Shown: piece by piece, positions 8,549-14,660 of the stretch
Layout of the letters: every line of letters begins with the position of its first letter
Numbering within the stretch: the first letter of the stretch is position 1
Origin: a virus
Length of the DNA: 31,255 nucleotides
IMG/VR virus record: IMGVR_UViG_3300031140_000023
Span: 1-31,255 of that record
Strand: one strand, 5' to 3'
The notes under the pieces: model-generated
The model's database searches: none
Seen by the model: the letters and a program-made list of their open reading frames with translations, nothing else
Told to the model about the DNA's origin: nothing
Made by a program: the position numbers and the translations under genes

Positions 8549-9025
8549 TTATGTCATTGATGGGTCAGCGCCCAGCCTTGCTGAAGCGGCCTCATACGCT
8601 TCGCTTGCCGCTTCGGCTGCACTGAAGCGGCCTAAGTAGTGGCGCACGCCATCACGCTGAATCTGCGAGAACCAACCGCCCGCCGGGTGATGGAACACAC
8701 CACGAAAGCCACTCTTGTTATTGACTGACCGCTTTCGGGTGCTGCTGGCGCCAAGCATTTTTTGAGTCTTTAGGCAGAGGTTTGCAAGCGTAAGGTTTCT
8801 GCCGTTGCCATCCAGAAACGAGACGAGCCACCCATCTGTTATTTCGCCATAATGCATTTTCCATATGATCCTTGCCATTGAGTAGGTAGTCCCCTGGTAC
8901 CTTACGAGGGGATCAGGGCGTCCATAGCTCCCTGCCATAGCGCCTGCCCTTCCGCCAGCGCTAGCGTTTATCCTCCAAAGCAGCTTACCCTCTGGTAGAT
9001 ACTCGAATATATCATTAAAGTCCAT
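8549..9025 (-). CDS. AP2-domain HNH endonuclease-like protein, degenerate HNH
   Basis: 158 residues. The N-terminal half (about 40-85) follows the HNH pattern of phage AP2/HNH homing endonucleases (YSMARIIWKMHYG, then a GWLV..LDGN..N..LANL segment). The Asp-His pair expected just before the LDGN stretch is replaced by Ser69-Phe70, so the catalytic His seems lost. The C-terminal half (about 103-150) is an AP2-type DNA-binding domain (NKSGFRGVFHH, YLGRFSAAEAASEAY). AAGGAG overlaps the polymerase exon 2 stop, so the gene is coupled to it. A 38-nt piece matching its start, with only synonymous changes, lies inside the intron at 12414-12451. It may be the intron's former or collaborating homing nuclease, or now only a DNA-binding protein. 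Confidence 0.85.
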   Translation of the reverse strand: MDFNDIFEYLPEGKLLWRINASAGGRAGAMAGSYGRPDPLVRYQGTTYSMARIIWKMHYGEITDGWLVSFLDGNGRNLTLANLCLKTQKMLGASSTRKRSVNNKSGFRGVFHHPAGGWFSQIQRDGVRHYLGRFSAAEAASEAYEAASARLGADPSMT

Positions 9026-9035
9026 TCTTATCTCC

Positions 9036-9734
9036 TTAACTGAAGCAATATTCAGATTCTAATATGGTGGAAATGTCGAAATCACCAACCTCAAGTGCAT
9101 CTGGCGACTCCCCAATTTGCTTCAAGATACCCCCTAGCGGATTGTCTTCGTAGAGCACAACAAACTGCTCTCTAACAATCCTGAAAAGATCATCCATGTC
9201 GGCTGCCAAGCAACCAAACGAATCATGCACGGTTGACACAGGAAAGCTACAGGCATTGACGGTCAAGATCAAGTGCGTTGCATCTAAGCTGTGGATCAAG
9301 TTAGGGGAAGCTCCTTGCGACTGTTTCCCCTTGGACATGACCTCCTTCTCGGTAAAGCAAATGCGTAGTTGCAGTGCATTTGCGTGGTACCCAGTACTCT
9401 TGACACGACCTTCCGCTGGGCCGTAGGGCACCCAGACCTTCTTCACCTCCCCTTCGACATAGTATTGAACTACGGGGAAGTTGATGATAGGCGTCTTCCA
9501 GCTGAGGAATTTACCTGCCTTCTCAGCTCTCTTGCCTGCGTTCTCAAAGATGCCCAGTAGCTGCATTGGCTTGCGTAATGCAGTCCTGCAACCAGCGTGG
9601 GTCTCCCTGCCCAGAAAAGCGCCCCATGAGTTTTCCATGTAGAGCAATCCGGGAATATTGTGTTTCCTTGCGTCGTCTATGATTTGTTGGCCAAGGCCGT
9701 AAGCACTTCCGCCGTAAGGTAACGTCATTACATT
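9036..9734 (-). CDS. T7-like RNA polymerase, exon 2 (C-terminal 232 residues)
   Basis: Continues exon 1 in phase 0 after removal of 9735-13142. The joined sequence reads IVKR|NVMTLPYGGSAYG, matching T7 KRSVMTLAYG, with Tyr513 at the place of T7 Tyr639. Further on come PNLIHSLDATH, the palm motif STVHDSFG (catalytic Asp677, T7 Asp812) and the T7-like C-terminus ILESEYCFS. As an isolated frame it could start only at an internal ATG (9728) and would lack the catalytic Asp and Lys supplied by exon 1. The whole spliced enzyme is 738 residues (T7: 883). It should transcribe the phage's middle and late genes from its own promoters. Confidence 0.93.
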   Translation of the reverse strand, partial: NVMTLPYGGSAYGLGQQIIDDARKHNIPGLLYMENSWGAFLGRETHAGCRTALRKPMQLLGIFENAGKRAEKAGKFLSWKTPIINFPVVQYYVEGEVKKVWVPYGPAEGRVKSTGYHANALQLRICFTEKEVMSKGKQSQGASPNLIHSLDATHLILTVNACSFPVSTVHDSFGCLAADMDDLFRIVREQFVVLYEDNPLGGILKQIGESPDALEVGDFDISTILESEYCFS

Positions 9735-9779
9735 CGTTGTGTTCGAGGAGGTTCGTTAGGCCTCCCCCGTTGTGTATTA
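9735..9779 (-). other. intron 3' end: P9.1 arm, hairpin and 3' splice site
   Basis: UAAUACACAACGG at 9779-9767 is complementary to CUGUUGUGUAUUA at 10749-10737, closing the second cargo loop. A hairpin with a GGAGG/CCUCC stem follows (about 9765-9747), then a single-stranded stretch ending in the terminal G at 9735. The first three bases of exon 2 (AAU) can pair with AUU at 13133-13131 next to the guide sequence, a plausible short P10. The UAA stop of the 307-codon ORF lies in the P9.1 arm itself. Confidence 0.8.
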
Positions 9780-10700
9780 TACGCAGCTGTAAGCCTTAGT
9801 AATTCTGCCCAGCCTCACATCACCCCGTAGGTGCGGGCGGACCCAAGTACGATGTGTAGGCGAAAAAATCCTGACATGCCCCCTGACAGCATGCAGCCTA
9901 ACGCCGCCCCTCCCGCCCCCTTCCGCGCCTTCGGCAGCGATCTCTTGTCTTGTGCCTAGCTCGACAGTCAATACGCGATAAGAGTCGAAAGGCGCTTTCC
10001 CCTTTCTGAGACGTTTCGCATTGCAGGCTGCGGTTACAGGCCTTACCTCCTTTACTACCGTGTTGGCGCACCCGCACATAAACAAGAAAGCTAGCGCCAC
10101 TTCCTGTATGGTTTTAAGCTCGAGGCTTTCGGCATCGGATAGTGGGCCTTTCGCCCCTGCAAACATCGGATTTTGTATGACCAGCCCTTGAGGACTACGG
10201 CCCTCTGCAGTAAACAGCGGCACCAAGCTCACTTGGCGTTGCATACGCAGCATAGTGGGCGATTTAACGAGGTCGCAACCGAACATCATGATAAGGACTG
10301 CGCCGGTGAACAACCCAGACTCATCCCAAAAAATGTCGTGGTCAACCCCACCAAATTGGCCGAGCTCTTTGACCTGCGCCTCCGACATATCAATGACGAA
10401 GAATACCGCCCTACTCGACAAATTTGCAGGGTCACGCTCTTCAACCTCGAGGCATATCCTAGGAAATGGCATATGAAGGCGTGTGCCGCCTAGCGTATCC
10501 ACGTTGCCGACAACATCTAGGTAAGCGTCAGGGGGCAGTAAGAAGTCTACCGCAGTGCCTACTGCAGCGGCAATTGCAGTGAAGGCGCCAGCGTGAATGC
10601 CGGCATCCTCCCACCTTGCCGGGTCGGCTTGTGCCAGCCGCACCGATCTCGCCAAATTAGCCTTGACTACTGCAATACTCATCAGTCTCTTCGTTCTCAT
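9777..10700 (-). CDS. intron-carried conserved-looking phage protein (P9.1 loop)
   Basis: 307 residues, with AAGGAG seven bases before the ATG. The protein is mixed alpha/beta, with a hydrophobic stretch near ESGLFTGAVLIMMFGC. Its C-terminal 70 residues (KRLRKGKAPFDSYRVL, then RGHVRIFSPTHRTWVRPHLRG and RLGRITKAY) resemble a C-terminal segment common in hypothetical phage proteins; I cannot name a function. No LAGLIDADG, GIY-YIG or HNH motif is visible, so it is not an evident homing endonuclease. The gene fits entirely within the P9.1 loop: the start lies 36 bases inside one arm and the stop codon is part of the other. By eye it is GC-richer than the cargo at 10898-12320, suggesting separate origins. 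Confidence 0.85.
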   Translation of the reverse strand: MRTKRLMSIAVVKANLARSVRLAQADPARWEDAGIHAGAFTAIAAAVGTAVDFLLPPDAYLDVVGNVDTLGGTRLHMPFPRICLEVEERDPANLSSRAVFFVIDMSEAQVKELGQFGGVDHDIFWDESGLFTGAVLIMMFGCDLVKSPTMLRMQRQVSLVPLFTAEGRSPQGLVIQNPMFAGAKGPLSDAESLELKTIQEVALAFLFMCGCANTVVKEVRPVTAACNAKRLRKGKAPFDSYRVLTVELGTRQEIAAEGAEGGGRGGVRLHAVRGHVRIFSPTHRTWVRPHLRGDVRLGRITKAYSCV

Positions 10701-10736
10701 TCCAATCTCCTTGAGCTATCGCTCGTTATTTAACGT

Positions 10737-10892
10737 TAATACACAACAGCTGCATGTTACCATGCAGACCAGACTATATCATAGGTGGCCGAAGCCACCC
10801 CCTGCGCTTCCCAGGACCTATCCCAGTACGAGCTAGGACTGCCGAAGCAGCCCATCATCGCTCTAGTCGTTACACTTTCAACACCGCCAAGT
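10737..10892 (-). other. group I intron core, 3' half (P6 to P9.1 arm)
   Basis: In 5'-3' order on the minus strand: P6 arm ACUUGGCGGUGUUG (10892-10879); the R-like segment GUAACGACUAGAG with the 5' strand of P7, GACUA (10868-10864); P7.1 hairpin GGGCUGC-UUCG-GCAGUCC (10853-10836); P3 arm CGCAGGGGGU (10806-10797); P8 hairpin with a GGUGGC-UUCG-GCCACC stem (10799-10784, sharing a few bases with P3); the S-like segment GAUAUAGUCUG with the 3' strand of P7, UAGUC (10776-10772); P9 hairpin CUGCAUG-GUAA-CAUGCAG (10767-10750); P9.1 arm (10749-10737). The S-P9 segment is nearly the same as I recall for the T4 td intron. Confidence 0.88.
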
Positions 10893-10897
10893 GTTTG

Positions 10898-11611
10898 TTA
10901 CTTACCCACCACCACACTGCCTAACCTCCCGAGAAATAGTATCTGACGTAAAGGCTTCTCGTCTATTGGCACTTTGATTACTTCGCAAACCGTTCCATTT
11001 GCAACCTCGTAGTACCTGGAGTACACATTGTCTTCCTTCTTGCGGCCAGCAGCATTAAGCGCATCAGTCACACATATATTTAGTTGCTGTCTTGCAGTTT
11101 CCTCTGTACTATAGAGTGTTACAGCTGAACGCCATACATCAAGTACCCAAACAAGACTACCTTCTACGCTATCATCTTGCTTTATAGCTGCGTCGTGCAT
11201 ACTTCCCATAGCGACCCCTCCAGGTGCGTTGACCGTCAGTCTATTTACTACTTTATATGGATGGTGAGAGCCCTCAGTTAGGCTCTCTTGTGTAGTCCTG
11301 GTGCTAGCGAGTTTGAACTCTAGATCAGAAACTGGTACGTAAGACAAGCTTACGTGGCGTTTCCCAGGGTGCCTGTTTACTTCGCAAAGGACACCACAAT
11401 AAAGTAACCCTTCTTCACCTTCGTTAATAAGCCTTGATAATGTGGGGCCATTCAAAAACCCCCTGACTACTGGGATGCCTGAGCTATCTGAAAATGCTCT
11501 CAATTCCTTAGCTAGCTCAAAAAACCTACCGTGCCATTGCTTCTTACTAGCTATAAAAGGCTGCAGCAGTCGTGCTAACTGAGCAATCTGTCCTCCATTT
11601 AGATCATGCAT
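10898..11611 (-). CDS. intron-carried hypothetical protein (P6 loop)
   Basis: 237 residues, not recognised. The N-terminal 90 residues look helical and include a basic stretch (FIASKKQWHGRFFELAKEL); the remainder is beta-rich with runs such as GSLVWVLDVWRSAVTLY. No nuclease, kinase or known DNA-binding motif is visible. It is the last ORF of a three-gene cluster (12320 to 10898) with four- to five-base spacing or overlaps, and its stop lies just five bases before the P6 arm, so the cargo ends exactly where the ribozyme resumes. By eye the DNA is AT-richer than the flanking phage genes. Confidence 0.75.
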   Translation of the reverse strand: MHDLNGGQIAQLARLLQPFIASKKQWHGRFFELAKELRAFSDSSGIPVVRGFLNGPTLSRLINEGEEGLLYCGVLCEVNRHPGKRHVSLSYVPVSDLEFKLASTRTTQESLTEGSHHPYKVVNRLTVNAPGGVAMGSMHDAAIKQDDSVEGSLVWVLDVWRSAVTLYSTEETARQQLNICVTDALNAAGRKKEDNVYSRYYEVANGTVCEVIKVPIDEKPLRQILFLGRLGSVVVGK

Positions 11612-11616
11612 AATAT

Positions 11617-11814
11617 CTAATCCTCAGTCTTTAGAAATTCTATAGTGTCTTGAGATCCTATTAGGTACTGGTGCTTTATTTCAGCAACAGCGGAGTTCAC
11701 CATAGAGTTGGCTACAGCTACAATAGCGTTAGCATCTTTAGCATTGATACGACCCTCTGTTAAGTCTATCAAAGTGACTGCTAATACGGCTCTAAGTTCT
11801 TTTGTGTTTTTCAT
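11617..11814 (-). CDS. intron-carried small protein (P6 loop)
   Basis: 65 residues with GGAG ten bases before the ATG, which overlaps the upstream stop (ATGA). The sequence is helical (ELRAVLAVTLIDLTEGRINA, KDANAIVAVANSMVNSAVAEI) and may form a small helical bundle. This pattern is common among small phage proteins of unknown role. The DNA is AT-rich compared with neighbouring phage genes. Confidence 0.7.
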   Translation of the reverse strand: MKNTKELRAVLAVTLIDLTEGRINAKDANAIVAVANSMVNSAVAEIKHQYLIGSQDTIEFLKTED

Positions 11815-12320
11815 GAGGATATCTCCAGTAGTACTCGTTTAAGTTTAATTAAGGCTCTTTTTACTTCTATTAACTCAGGGGGTGCCTTTTCAGCCCCTTG
11901 AGTTTTAAGCAACCTACGAATATAGCTATCTTTAAGCTCCTTAACCGCTATAAAGCCCTTACGCCTGTTGTATACTTTGCATCCGGGCGCTGTTCGGTCT
12001 TTTACATTCCTGCATTTTCTGCACTGTGTATGCTTCATTAAGGCATGGCGATCATGTCTAGGGAAAGCTTCAAAAGGTAGCATTTGGTTACACACGAAAC
12101 ACTCAAGCATTGTTTTTGTGGCCATTCGCACTCTTCTGGGTATCATCCCTTTTGATAACCTCCACAATCGATCTTTCTTAATATTGCAACTTATACAAAT
12201 CCTATGGGGTATCAGTCGACCGCCACTCAACCTCTCATAAAAGCGCGAAATGACTTTCCATCTGTAACAAGCAATGCATTTATTGCGACCACATATTGTA
12301 GTGTTTGGGGCTTTAGGCAT
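11811..12320 (-). CDS. intron-carried double zinc-finger protein (P6 loop)
   Basis: 169 basic residues with two matching four-cysteine zinc modules: Cys15/Cys18 with Cys42/Cys45, and Cys74/Cys77 with Cys100/Cys103. Both have the layout CxxC-x5-7-F-x-R-x(14-18)-CxxC seen at the N-terminus of many phage HNH-related proteins, but no HNH catalytic His-Asn-His follows. The C-terminal helix (DSYIRRLLKTQ, then PPELIEVKRALIKLKRVLLE) resembles the end of small phage proteins often found with homing endonucleases. It probably binds DNA or RNA; a nuclease role is not supported. The ATG has no strong ribosome binding site: the nearest AAGGAGGG is more than 20 bases upstream. Could be a relic or accessory of intron mobility. 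Confidence 0.75.
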   Translation of the reverse strand: MPKAPNTTICGRNKCIACYRWKVISRFYERLSGGRLIPHRICISCNIKKDRLWRLSKGMIPRRVRMATKTMLECFVCNQMLPFEAFPRHDRHALMKHTQCRKCRNVKDRTAPGCKVYNRRKGFIAVKELKDSYIRRLLKTQGAEKAPPELIEVKRALIKLKRVLLEISS

Positions 12321-12333
12321 ATAAGCTTGGCGA

Positions 12334-12451
12334 CTATCGTCTGCCCTCCTTAAAATATTGTTGACACTTGGGGTGGCCTGGCCGAGTACGTATAGGCGCT
12401 CGGTTCAGGATGCTGCCTTCTGGCAGATACTCAAATATATCATTAAAGTCC
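12334..12451 (-). pseudogene. 5' fragment of an AP2/HNH endonuclease gene
   Basis: The first 38 bases (12451-12414) match the start of the AP2/HNH gene at 9025 at 34 of 38 positions, encoding the same DFNDIFEYLPEG without its start Met. All four differences are synonymous third-position changes. After that the frame runs 26 codons of unrelated sequence to a stop at 12334. The fragment begins inside the end of the upstream 74-codon ORF and supplies its stop codon. It shows that an HNH relative once occupied this intron or recombined here. Confidence 0.8.
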
Positions 12452-12667
12452 GTTGGTTATGACCGAATACTTATCCATTTCTTCCATCATATGATCTTGT
12501 GTAGCTGCGTGCGCCATCCCGTTATCGTATAAGATCTTGAGACCGGGGCGTTCGCCGAAGATGTCGTAGTGCACACCTTCGAACATAAGCCAGGTATGCT
12601 CCATCTCATCAGCGCATATTACCACGCTATTCGGAATCAGCGCATGTAACGCAGCTGCGAAGTTCAC
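12443..12667 (-). CDS. intron-carried small protein (P6 loop)
   Basis: 74 residues. The GTG start overlaps the stop of the upstream ORF (GTGA), so translation is coupled. The protein is acidic with clustered Met and His (HTWLMFEGVHYDIFGE, HAATQDHMMEEMDKY). Not recognised. Its last codons and stop come from the HNH gene fragment at 12451, so the native C-terminus may have been different before that rearrangement. Confidence 0.6.
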   Translation of the reverse strand: MNFAAALHALIPNSVVICADEMEHTWLMFEGVHYDIFGERPGLKILYDNGMAHAATQDHMMEEMDKYSVITNGL

Positions 12668-12813
12668 GCAATTTCCGCAAAAAAGATGTCTACGATCAAC
12701 TCATGAGGACTTTCAGCGTTTTGAGCTGTACCCCTCAGAAGTCCAATTGCTTTCAGAATGTGCGGTGACGCGTTAGGTTCACCAGGAAAGTCCTGGTCAG
12801 CGGGGCGTGTCAT
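12664..12813 (-). CDS. intron-carried small protein (P6 loop)
   Basis: 49 residues from the ATG at 12813, which has GAGGAG eight bases upstream and overlaps the previous gene by 17 bases. A longer frame to 12894 would overlap that gene almost completely and lacks a better start. The sequence (PNASPHILKAIGLL, ESPHELIVDIFFAEIA) suggests a small helical protein. Not recognised. Confidence 0.55.
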   Translation of the reverse strand: MTRPADQDFPGEPNASPHILKAIGLLRGTAQNAESPHELIVDIFFAEIA

Positions 12814-13039
12814 GTTGCATCTCCTCAATTTCAACAGTAAGGCAGGTGTAGTCGCCCACGTCGCATATACCGACTCCAATTTCGTCACCCGCAATGAACA
12901 CCTTTACAACGTCGTACTTCTCGCGGATGGCTTGCAATCTCACGATCAGTGCGCTTATCGAGTCACTGCCATCTAACACAGGGAGGTATTGCTTCCCGTC
13001 CGATGTCGTTATTATTTCTGGTTCGCTTTCTACTAGCAT
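12797..13039 (-). CDS. intron-carried small protein, first P6-loop gene
   Basis: 80 residues from the ATG at 13039, with AAGGA eight bases upstream. The product is a small alpha/beta protein (SALIVRLQAIREKYDVVKVFIAGDEIG is strand-helix-like, read in pieces; then DYTCLTVEIEEM). Not recognised. The frame could be extended to a GTG at 13114, but that would place coding sequence through the ribozyme's P3-P6 arm, so the internal ATG, which lies just inside the loop, is preferred. Confidence 0.65.
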   Translation of the reverse strand: MLVESEPEIITTSDGKQYLPVLDGSDSISALIVRLQAIREKYDVVKVFIAGDEIGVGICDVGDYTCLTVEIEEMQHDTPR

Positions 13040-13058
13040 GTCATTTCCTTTTTGTAGT

Positions 13059-13142
13059 ACTTGGCGGTGTTGCTTAGCTCGGTATTGCCCACAAGGGGTG
13101 TCCACCGAATTCACATGGTTTTACAAGCGCAATTTTTTGTTC
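13059..13142 (-). other. group I intron core, 5' half (P1, P3, P4/P5, P6 arm)
   Basis: The intron starts at G13142. Internal guide GCGCUUG (13130-13124) pairs with the exon end CAAGCGU (13149-13143) in seven pairs including the terminal U.G. P3 arm ACCCCUUGUG (13099-13090) pairs with CGCAGGGGGU at 10806-10797. A Q-like segment GGCAAUACCGAGCUAAG (13089-13073) supplies P4/P5. P6 arm CAACACCGCCAAGU (13072-13059) pairs with 10892-10879. The exon-1 reading frame continues into this region and stops at 13076-13074, immediately before the P6 arm. Confidence 0.88.
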
Positions 13143-14660
13143 ACGCTTGACAATCTTTCTGATGTGTCCTGACTCAGTAATGCGCAGCCAGAACACAGGC
13201 GAACACAACCTCAACACTAGAGCATGACCCTCTTTGAATGTCTTGGCTGCATGTATCGCCTTGAATCGCCCCTCGCTCCTAGGCGCTTGTGAGGCGATAC
13301 GTGATTTTAGAATAGCTAGATGGTCGATGAAGGTCTCGCAATCTTCGATCTCTTGGCTATCCATCTCACGTTTATACTCCCGCAGCTTGTCCCACATATG
13401 CGCCCCGATATACGCATACAGATCACCGGGATACAGGCGCGGTACTAGGTTCACATGCTCGGCTGTCTCCGCATCTCTTGATAGCGCTGAAAGATGCTGA
13501 AGACCATTGGTGCTACCGTCGATAAATATCACGACGGTTGATTCAAAGTCGTAGTCTTGATTGCGTCCCCAGTATCGCATGAAGTGTCGAAGCTCCATAC
13601 AGTACAGCATAAATTGCCAGGGTGAGTCAGCATTCATCCAATCCTTGTTTATCTTTGGCGACTCAGCAAAGCCCATGAGCATCCGCAAATGTCGTAGACC
13701 CCATCTGAAGCGTTGCTGCAAAGGTATCTTGTCAGTCGTCCGACTTCCTACCTTGCCTGCCCACTTTGTAGCAATTGCGATTAGCAGCCATCGGAAGCCC
13801 TCTCTGCCTAAGGCTTTGCCCTCAGAACGTCGGAGCAGACCTTTAGCGGTGTCAGCGCCTTGCTCATGCAGGTAAGCGGTGGCAGGGTAGATTCTTGACC
13901 TGAAGTCGTAATAGTACCTGTGATAAAAGATATCCCCTAGAAACTTATCCGCAATTTCATGAATGATCTGATACTCTCTGACCTTGGAAGCCTTCGCCTC
14001 CCTGTCGTAGATTGACCAGATGTCTTTGAACGCCTCTTCGCGATTGTCAAAGGCCCACTGCTGAAGCTGATAGAGTCGGATATCTACCGTCCAGCCCACG
14101 TTTTGGACGCGATTGATACACTTAAAAAGCAGCGGCTGGTTCTCAATAGCAAGACGGTGGAGGACTGCCTTGTCTCCCGTCTTCACCATCACTTCGCCCT
14201 TACTGTTCCAAGCTCTTGTCCAGTTCTCCGCTGGGGAGAGGTGAGGCAAACTCCTGGAGCTTTCGGTGGGAAGGAGACGCCAGAGTGCAGCCAATCCTTC
14301 CGTGTCCACAACCTCAATCAAGTACTTGTTGTGTTTAGAGCCCTCGACAGTGCCAAGCTTCAAGGCGGTAAGACCTACATCCTCTAATGAATATAGAAAA
14401 AAACCGCCTAGCTTTGCTGCTTGTGCTGAATGCTTCTTTACCTCAAACTGGCGCATGAGACCTCGACCTATTGAAGTCGATAGCTCTGCCAGTGGTGCCT
14501 CTTCAGCTTCCCCGTGTGGCGCCCTAGTATACAGGTACGTCACACTAACTAGCGTAGGAATACACTGTTTAAGAGCCCACTCTTTTACGAATGCGATTGA
14601 GGACTTCGGAGGGATCTCCTCGAGTCTAGCGGTCATTGAGGCGACTAGTGCGTCTATCAC
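13143..14660 (-). CDS. T7-like RNA polymerase, exon 1 (N-terminal 506 residues)
   Basis: 506 codons from a GTG at 14660 with AAGGAG nine bases upstream. Recognisable T7-family blocks are YYYDFRSRIYP (about 249-259), TAKGLLRRSEGKALGREGFRWL (about 271-292, read in pieces), motif A FIDGSTNGLQHLSALSRD with catalytic Asp381 (T7 Asp537), and RKIVKR with Lys505 (T7 Lys631). The exon ends after Arg506. Without splicing the frame would add 22 foreign residues and stop at 13074, losing the fingers Tyr and palm His-Asp. Splicing is therefore needed for activity. The gene follows a 51-codon membrane peptide gene and is the first large gene after the terminator at 14948-14989. Confidence 0.93.

Follow-up and report, generated by a model that had tools for sequence, protein, structure and literature searches.

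Group IA introns of the T4 td type and the intron described here have in common the core, the S-element, a GNRA-type P9 loop, the terminal G and the U.G pair of P1, and in td, as in the present intron, an ORF lies in the P6a loop. They differ in that our intron interrupts a T7-type RNA polymerase gene and carries about seven ORFs in two loops, as opposed to one homing gene. The closest RNA polymerase precedent is phiPA3, where a group I intron is found at a catalytic residue in the gene for the beta subunit of RNA polymerase and encodes the HNH enzyme gp210, which is harmful to a competing phage (PMC11620839). Here too a phage RNA polymerase gene holds a group I intron at a catalytic position, but the enzyme of phiPA3 is a multi-subunit one and its HNH protein is active, whereas the polymerase that we studied is a single-subunit one and no intact HNH gene lies inside its intron. 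In Pf-WMP3, a T7-like phage, a group IA intron with an HNH gene (I-PfoP3I) interrupts the DNA polymerase gene (PMC3428280); here again a related phage group has the intron in a catalytic gene, although the target is not the RNA polymerase and the intron has a single ORF. Several ORFs in one intron are known from group I introns of fungal mitochondria, a survey counting as many as five homing genes in a single fungal intron (PMC11835236), but those are all LAGLIDADG homing genes, whereas most ORFs of our intron resemble no known nuclease. In the literature that we searched, a partial coverage with many subscription papers outside it, we found no intron described for the T7-type polymerase gene of a phage, and neither a T7-type polymerase as a multi-site intron target nor such a multi-gene load. 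The ribozyme itself is an ordinary td-like group IA intron; what is new is the target gene with its several sites and the unusual multi-gene load.

Our analysis of the window, that is, the whole 31-kb virus record, leaves very little doubt that a td-like group IA intron, predicted to be self-splicing, lies in motif B (the O-helix) of a phage single-subunit RNA polymerase gene. When both exons are joined, they form one open frame of 738 aa plus a stop, which starts with a GTG codon downstream of an AAGGAG ribosome site and aligns with T7 RNA polymerase with an E-value of 6.4e-40. Motifs A, B and C are all present in the spliced protein and PF00940 matches both exons, as expected of a T7-type single-subunit enzyme. 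The original prediction had placed the boundaries at 13142 and 9735 in phase 0, with exon 1 ending in IVKR and exon 2 beginning with NVMTLPYG, and all of this was confirmed in the sequence. Its T7 numbering was also correct, since in the alignment Lys631/Arg632 precede the joint and Tyr639 follows it, the junction falling between the equivalents of Arg632 and Ser633. The proposed location of the intron in the catalytic helix is borne out both by the T7 alignment across the joint and by intronless relatives, among them an IMG/VR locus (L001) with an uninterrupted polymerase (48% identity over 754 aligned positions) in which RKIVKRNVMTLPYGG is contiguous. The features of the locus are collected in the table.

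Features of the interrupted polymerase gene and its intron (window coordinates; - denotes the minus strand)
Feature	Position	Strand	Details and evidence
Exon 1, T7-type RNA polymerase	13143..14660	-	506 aa; motif A; PF00940, phrog_414, T7 alignment
P1 exon strand CAAGCGU	13143..13149	-	last U forms the splice-site U.G pair
Group I intron, 3408 nt	9735..13142	-	boundaries, P1, covariation, covariance models, intronless alleles
Internal guide sequence GCGCUUG	13124..13130	-	P1 intron strand; begins at intron position 13
P3 5' strand CCAUGUG	13112..13118	-	6/7 pairs, one A.G
P4 5' strand UCGGUG	13103..13108	-	core alignment, covariation, 5' covariance model
P5 hairpin (CCC/GGG)	13088..13098	-	core alignment, covariation
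P4 3' strand UACCGA	13079..13084	-	core alignment, covariation, 5' covariance model
P6a 5' strand CAACACCGCCAAGU	13059..13072	-	14 bp, perfect
P6a loop, 2166 nt	10893..13058	-	ORFs of 105, 76, 74, 169, 65 and 237 aa
105-aa ORF as listed	12797..13114	-	later start inside the loop likely; no family found
76-aa ORF	12664..12894	-	no family found
74-aa ORF	12443..12667	-	weak Phage_YunG-like match, below cut-off
Remnant of HNH gene start, 17 codons	12400..12450	-	within the P6a loop
169-aa ORF	11811..12320	-	CxxC...CxxC unit present twice; weak endonuclease VII family matches
65-aa ORF	11617..11814	-	ORF list
237-aa ORF	10898..11611	-	no relatives found
P6a 3' strand ACUUGGCGGUGUUG	10879..10892	-	
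P7 5' strand GACUA	10864..10868	-	core alignment, covariation table, 3' covariance model
P3 3' strand CGCAGGG	10800..10806	-	core alignment
P8 hairpin GGUGGC-UUCG-GCCACC	10784..10799	-	Rfam partial match, 3' covariance model
P7 3' strand UAGUC	10772..10776	-	Rfam partial match, 3' covariance model
P9 hairpin CUGCAUG-GUAA-CAUGCAG	10750..10767	-	Rfam partial match, 3' covariance model
P9.1 5' strand GUUGUGUAUUA	10737..10747	-	same stem in an intron of L070
307-aa ORF, P9.1 loop	9777..10700	-	AAGGAG upstream; no relatives found
P9.1 3' strand UAAUACACAAC	9769..9779	-	
P9.2 hairpin GGGGAGG/CCUCCUC	9745..9767	-	sequence
Terminal (omega) G	9735..9735	-	sequence
Exon 2	9036..9734	-	232 aa + stop; rest of motif B, motif C; PF00940, T7 alignment
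Free-standing HNH/AP2 gene, directly after exon 2	8549..9025	-	full-length; related to intron-borne HNH proteins

The elements of a group I core, P3-P4-P5-P6-P7-P8, occur in order, as judged from the core alignment and two covariance models. We verified the predicted P1, in which seven pairs join the exon end to the guide, the one at the splice site being U.G, and found a P1 of equal quality in 0.4% of trials when the first intron bases were shuffled; the final intron base is G as claimed. The prediction had also listed P3, P7, P7.1, P8 and td-like P9 elements as all present. P7, P8 and the td-like P9 were indeed found, and hairpins in the place of P7.1/P7.2, where the 5' strand of P7 is followed by the 3' strand of P3, can be seen both in the sequence and in the alignment to the 3' covariance model; P3 proved to be imperfect, with one A.G mismatch among its seven pairs. 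Sequence features of subgroup IA are present as well, in the form of td-like R and S elements (AACGACUA and GAUAUAGUCU), and the S/P9 stretch is found nearly identical in introns of hundreds of phage records.

The strongest independent support for the group I identity came from two covariance models, covering the 5' and 3' halves of the core, which we built from introns of the relatives only, with the window excluded. Each gave a single match in the 31-kb window, both on the minus strand: 13150-13075 for the 5' model (66.6 bits, E 8.6e-17) and 10878-10750 for the 3' model (70.5 bits, E 9.1e-14), these E-values being rough because of short calibrations. Run on 46 other loci, the 5' model retrieved 13 introns, all in six previously suspected loci, plus one match at noise level. 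We also aligned the window core, with its two big loops removed, to 13 introns from four sites. Across these 14 sequences, standard pairs filled 98.1% of the cells, against 81.6% in shuffles and 30 to 46% in slid registers, and both sides of a pair had changed in 94 cells as compared with 30.8 in shuffles. The splice-site U.G pair was kept in 14 of 14 introns, while the remainder of P1 covaries with the insertion site; the sole broken pair of the window core in this alignment is the A.G in P3. P7 is invariant across the alignment and thus contributes no covariation evidence, and P8 was left out of the count as it aligns poorly. The Rfam group I model found no match in the window at its gathering score of 50 bits, giving a partial match of 22.4 bits with the loops in place and 22-24 bits over the runs on the window, a shortfall due to the large loops; the 3' half alone matched with E 1.5e-4, and the 5' half alone gave no match. 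The same model exceeded its gathering score on introns of relatives whose loops are shorter, including introns at exactly the window's site, with 54 to 84 bits in seven of the 13 loci tested. Taken together with the intronless relatives, the independent models and the covariation support the group I assignment made originally.

Comparison of the window with 80 related polymerase loci from IMG/VR revealed a pattern of at least five insertion sites that the original prediction had overlooked. Insertions of about 0.25 to 0.9 kb were present in 17 loci, some of which are near-copies of each other, and the other 63 were uninterrupted in the part that they hold. In the numbering of the window protein the sites are 249, 382, 506 (the window's own) and 512, with a fifth near 387 seen in L152, and all five fall in conserved catalytic stretches. 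Introns at site 506 in L018, L026, L029, L049 and L050 all follow an exon ending in AAGCGU, have GGCGCUU as their guide and finish with G. A pattern scan disclosed further introns at this site in L129, L140/L180, L152, L155, L165 and L191, and each of the eight matches accompanied by the next conserved block lay at this polymerase joint (L146 is the L018 contig again). The site-506 introns vary in content: L140 and L180 have a 251-nt form without an ORF, and one HNH ORF of about 155 aa is found in the introns of L018, L026, L029, L049, L129, L155, L165 and L191. In most introns of the relatives (L018, L026, L034 and others) the unspliced frame meets a stop only a few codons past the 5' splice site, as in CGU/UAA, with the slash marking the site. 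L152 and L165 (both minus strand) and L191 (3239-4277) have introns at both 506 and 512, separated by an exon of about 19 nt, the skipping of which would destroy the enzyme. The polymerase gene of L152 contains four group I introns in all (249, about 387, 506 and 512; minus strand, 10465-7032). Three introns were seen in one polymerase gene of L070 (2926-6000), and the one at site 382 has an 11-bp P9.1 stem identical to that of the window, with a different, helix-turn-helix-like ORF in the loop.

With its 3.4 kb, the window intron is about four times as long as the next longest in the set, and its load of about seven ORFs across the P6a and P9.1 loops had likewise gone unnoticed. About six ORFs, some overlapping and several preceded by a ribosome site, occupy the P6a loop, and the 307-aa ORF is closed off by the perfect 11-bp P9.1 stem. 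Searches of phage records and IMG/VR gave no relatives for the 169-, 237- and 307-aa ORFs, bacterial genomes gave none for the 307-aa ORF, and NCBIfam and PADLOC searches returned nothing useful. The 169-aa ORF, with its weak endonuclease VII match, is the only candidate nuclease inside the intron and an unproven candidate homing endonuclease. The lower G+C content of the 169-, 65- and 237-aa ORFs (stretch 10898-12320; 42 to 44%, against 51.8% for the window) suggests that they were separately acquired. No intact HNH or other homing endonuclease gene, the mark of a mobile intron, was found inside the window intron. The free-standing HNH gene that follows exon 2 is probably inactive, since it has Ser-Phe in place of the catalytic Asp-His and Ala in place of an earlier His. 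We infer that the intron no longer has the homing gene it once carried and has taken up other genes. A 39-nt direct repeat, 90% identical, occurs at 8988-9026 and 12416-12454 of the window and corresponds to the HNH gene start, one copy lying after exon 2 and the other being the remnant in the intron.

The best named relatives of the RNA and DNA polymerases of the window belong to the phages DSS3_PM1 and DSS3_VP1 (Naomviridae), with identities of about 37% and 33%; in these phages the polymerase genes run without interruption. As a control we took a clade of phiL7/Xp10-like and autographivirid polymerases and found no motif B insertion among 79 testable loci, so that in this sampling the intron load looks clade-bound. 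The window (1-31239) also encodes a siphovirus-like tape measure and tail-tip gene alongside the T7-type RNA polymerase, a combination that is unusual and occurs in few named phages.

According to the mechanism that we propose, guanosine would attack 3' of the U in the U.G pair of P1, and the freed exon 1 would then attack after the terminal G. The joined mRNA would be the only source of complete polymerase, as each unspliced polypeptide lacks at least one of motifs A, B and C; if the intron self-splices, as its sequence features predict, the transcription switch of the phage would thereby depend on splicing. This intron family enters the catalytic motifs of the polymerase repeatedly, and its members usually carry a single HNH homing gene in the region of P9; in the window the P6a and P9.1 loops hold other genes, which long perfect stems separate from the core. 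The length of 3.4 kb and the load of about seven ORFs may make splicing slow or inefficient. More speculatively, and with rather low confidence, an intron devoid of its homing gene could serve as a carrier of several unrelated phage genes, expressed from the unspliced RNA, with polymerase made only from the spliced RNA; the long P6a and P9.1 stems would shield the ribozyme from the lodged genes, and splicing would balance these genes against polymerase and time the transcription switch.

We considered other explanations for the interrupted gene. Polymerases of two chains exist in N4-like phages, and the two halves could be translated separately into a two-part enzyme like N4 RNA polymerase II, in which case the insert would be a gene cluster that need not splice. 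The unspliced exon 1 frame continues to a stop at 13074, 22 codons past the splice site, and exon 2 has an ATG at 9728, so that both halves could be translated; in addition, phrog_2166 matches exon 1. However, no clear ribosome site precedes the ATG in the sequence, the break falls between adjacent residues inside one conserved helix, and the insert has a group I core that covaries and an exon-guide pairing that changes in step with the insertion site, making a split polymerase very improbable. We give just as little credence to an assembly chimera in which contigs of foreign origin ended up inside an ordinary short intron. The load without relatives in the collections searched, its partly deviating G+C content and the representation of this phage by one contig would fit such an artefact, but three pieces of one ribozyme follow each other in the correct order and a perfect stem closes each gap between them; a random joint would not create such stems.

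Somewhat less remote, though still improbable, is a former group I intron decayed by gene insertions and the P3 mismatch, which would leave the polymerase unmade and the phage either defective or reliant on the host polymerase. Such decay would be consistent with the A.G pair, the very large loops, the loss of the internal HNH gene and the alterations in the free-standing one. Against it, both exons are open without stops and retain motifs A, B and C, all other core pairs in the alignment are intact, and both loops are closed by perfect stems, as would be expected under selection to keep the inserted genes apart from the core. A td-like group IA intron predicted to splice remains our strongly preferred interpretation.

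In this aquatic phage clade, group I introns have entered the T7-type RNA polymerase gene at five places; as many as four occur in a single gene, and the exon that separates two of them can be as short as 19 nt. The exact site of the window intron offers a natural series of intronless, 251-nt ORF-less, HNH-bearing and multi-gene forms, which makes intron arrival, homing gene loss, gene pickup and the effect on phage transcription timing directly testable.
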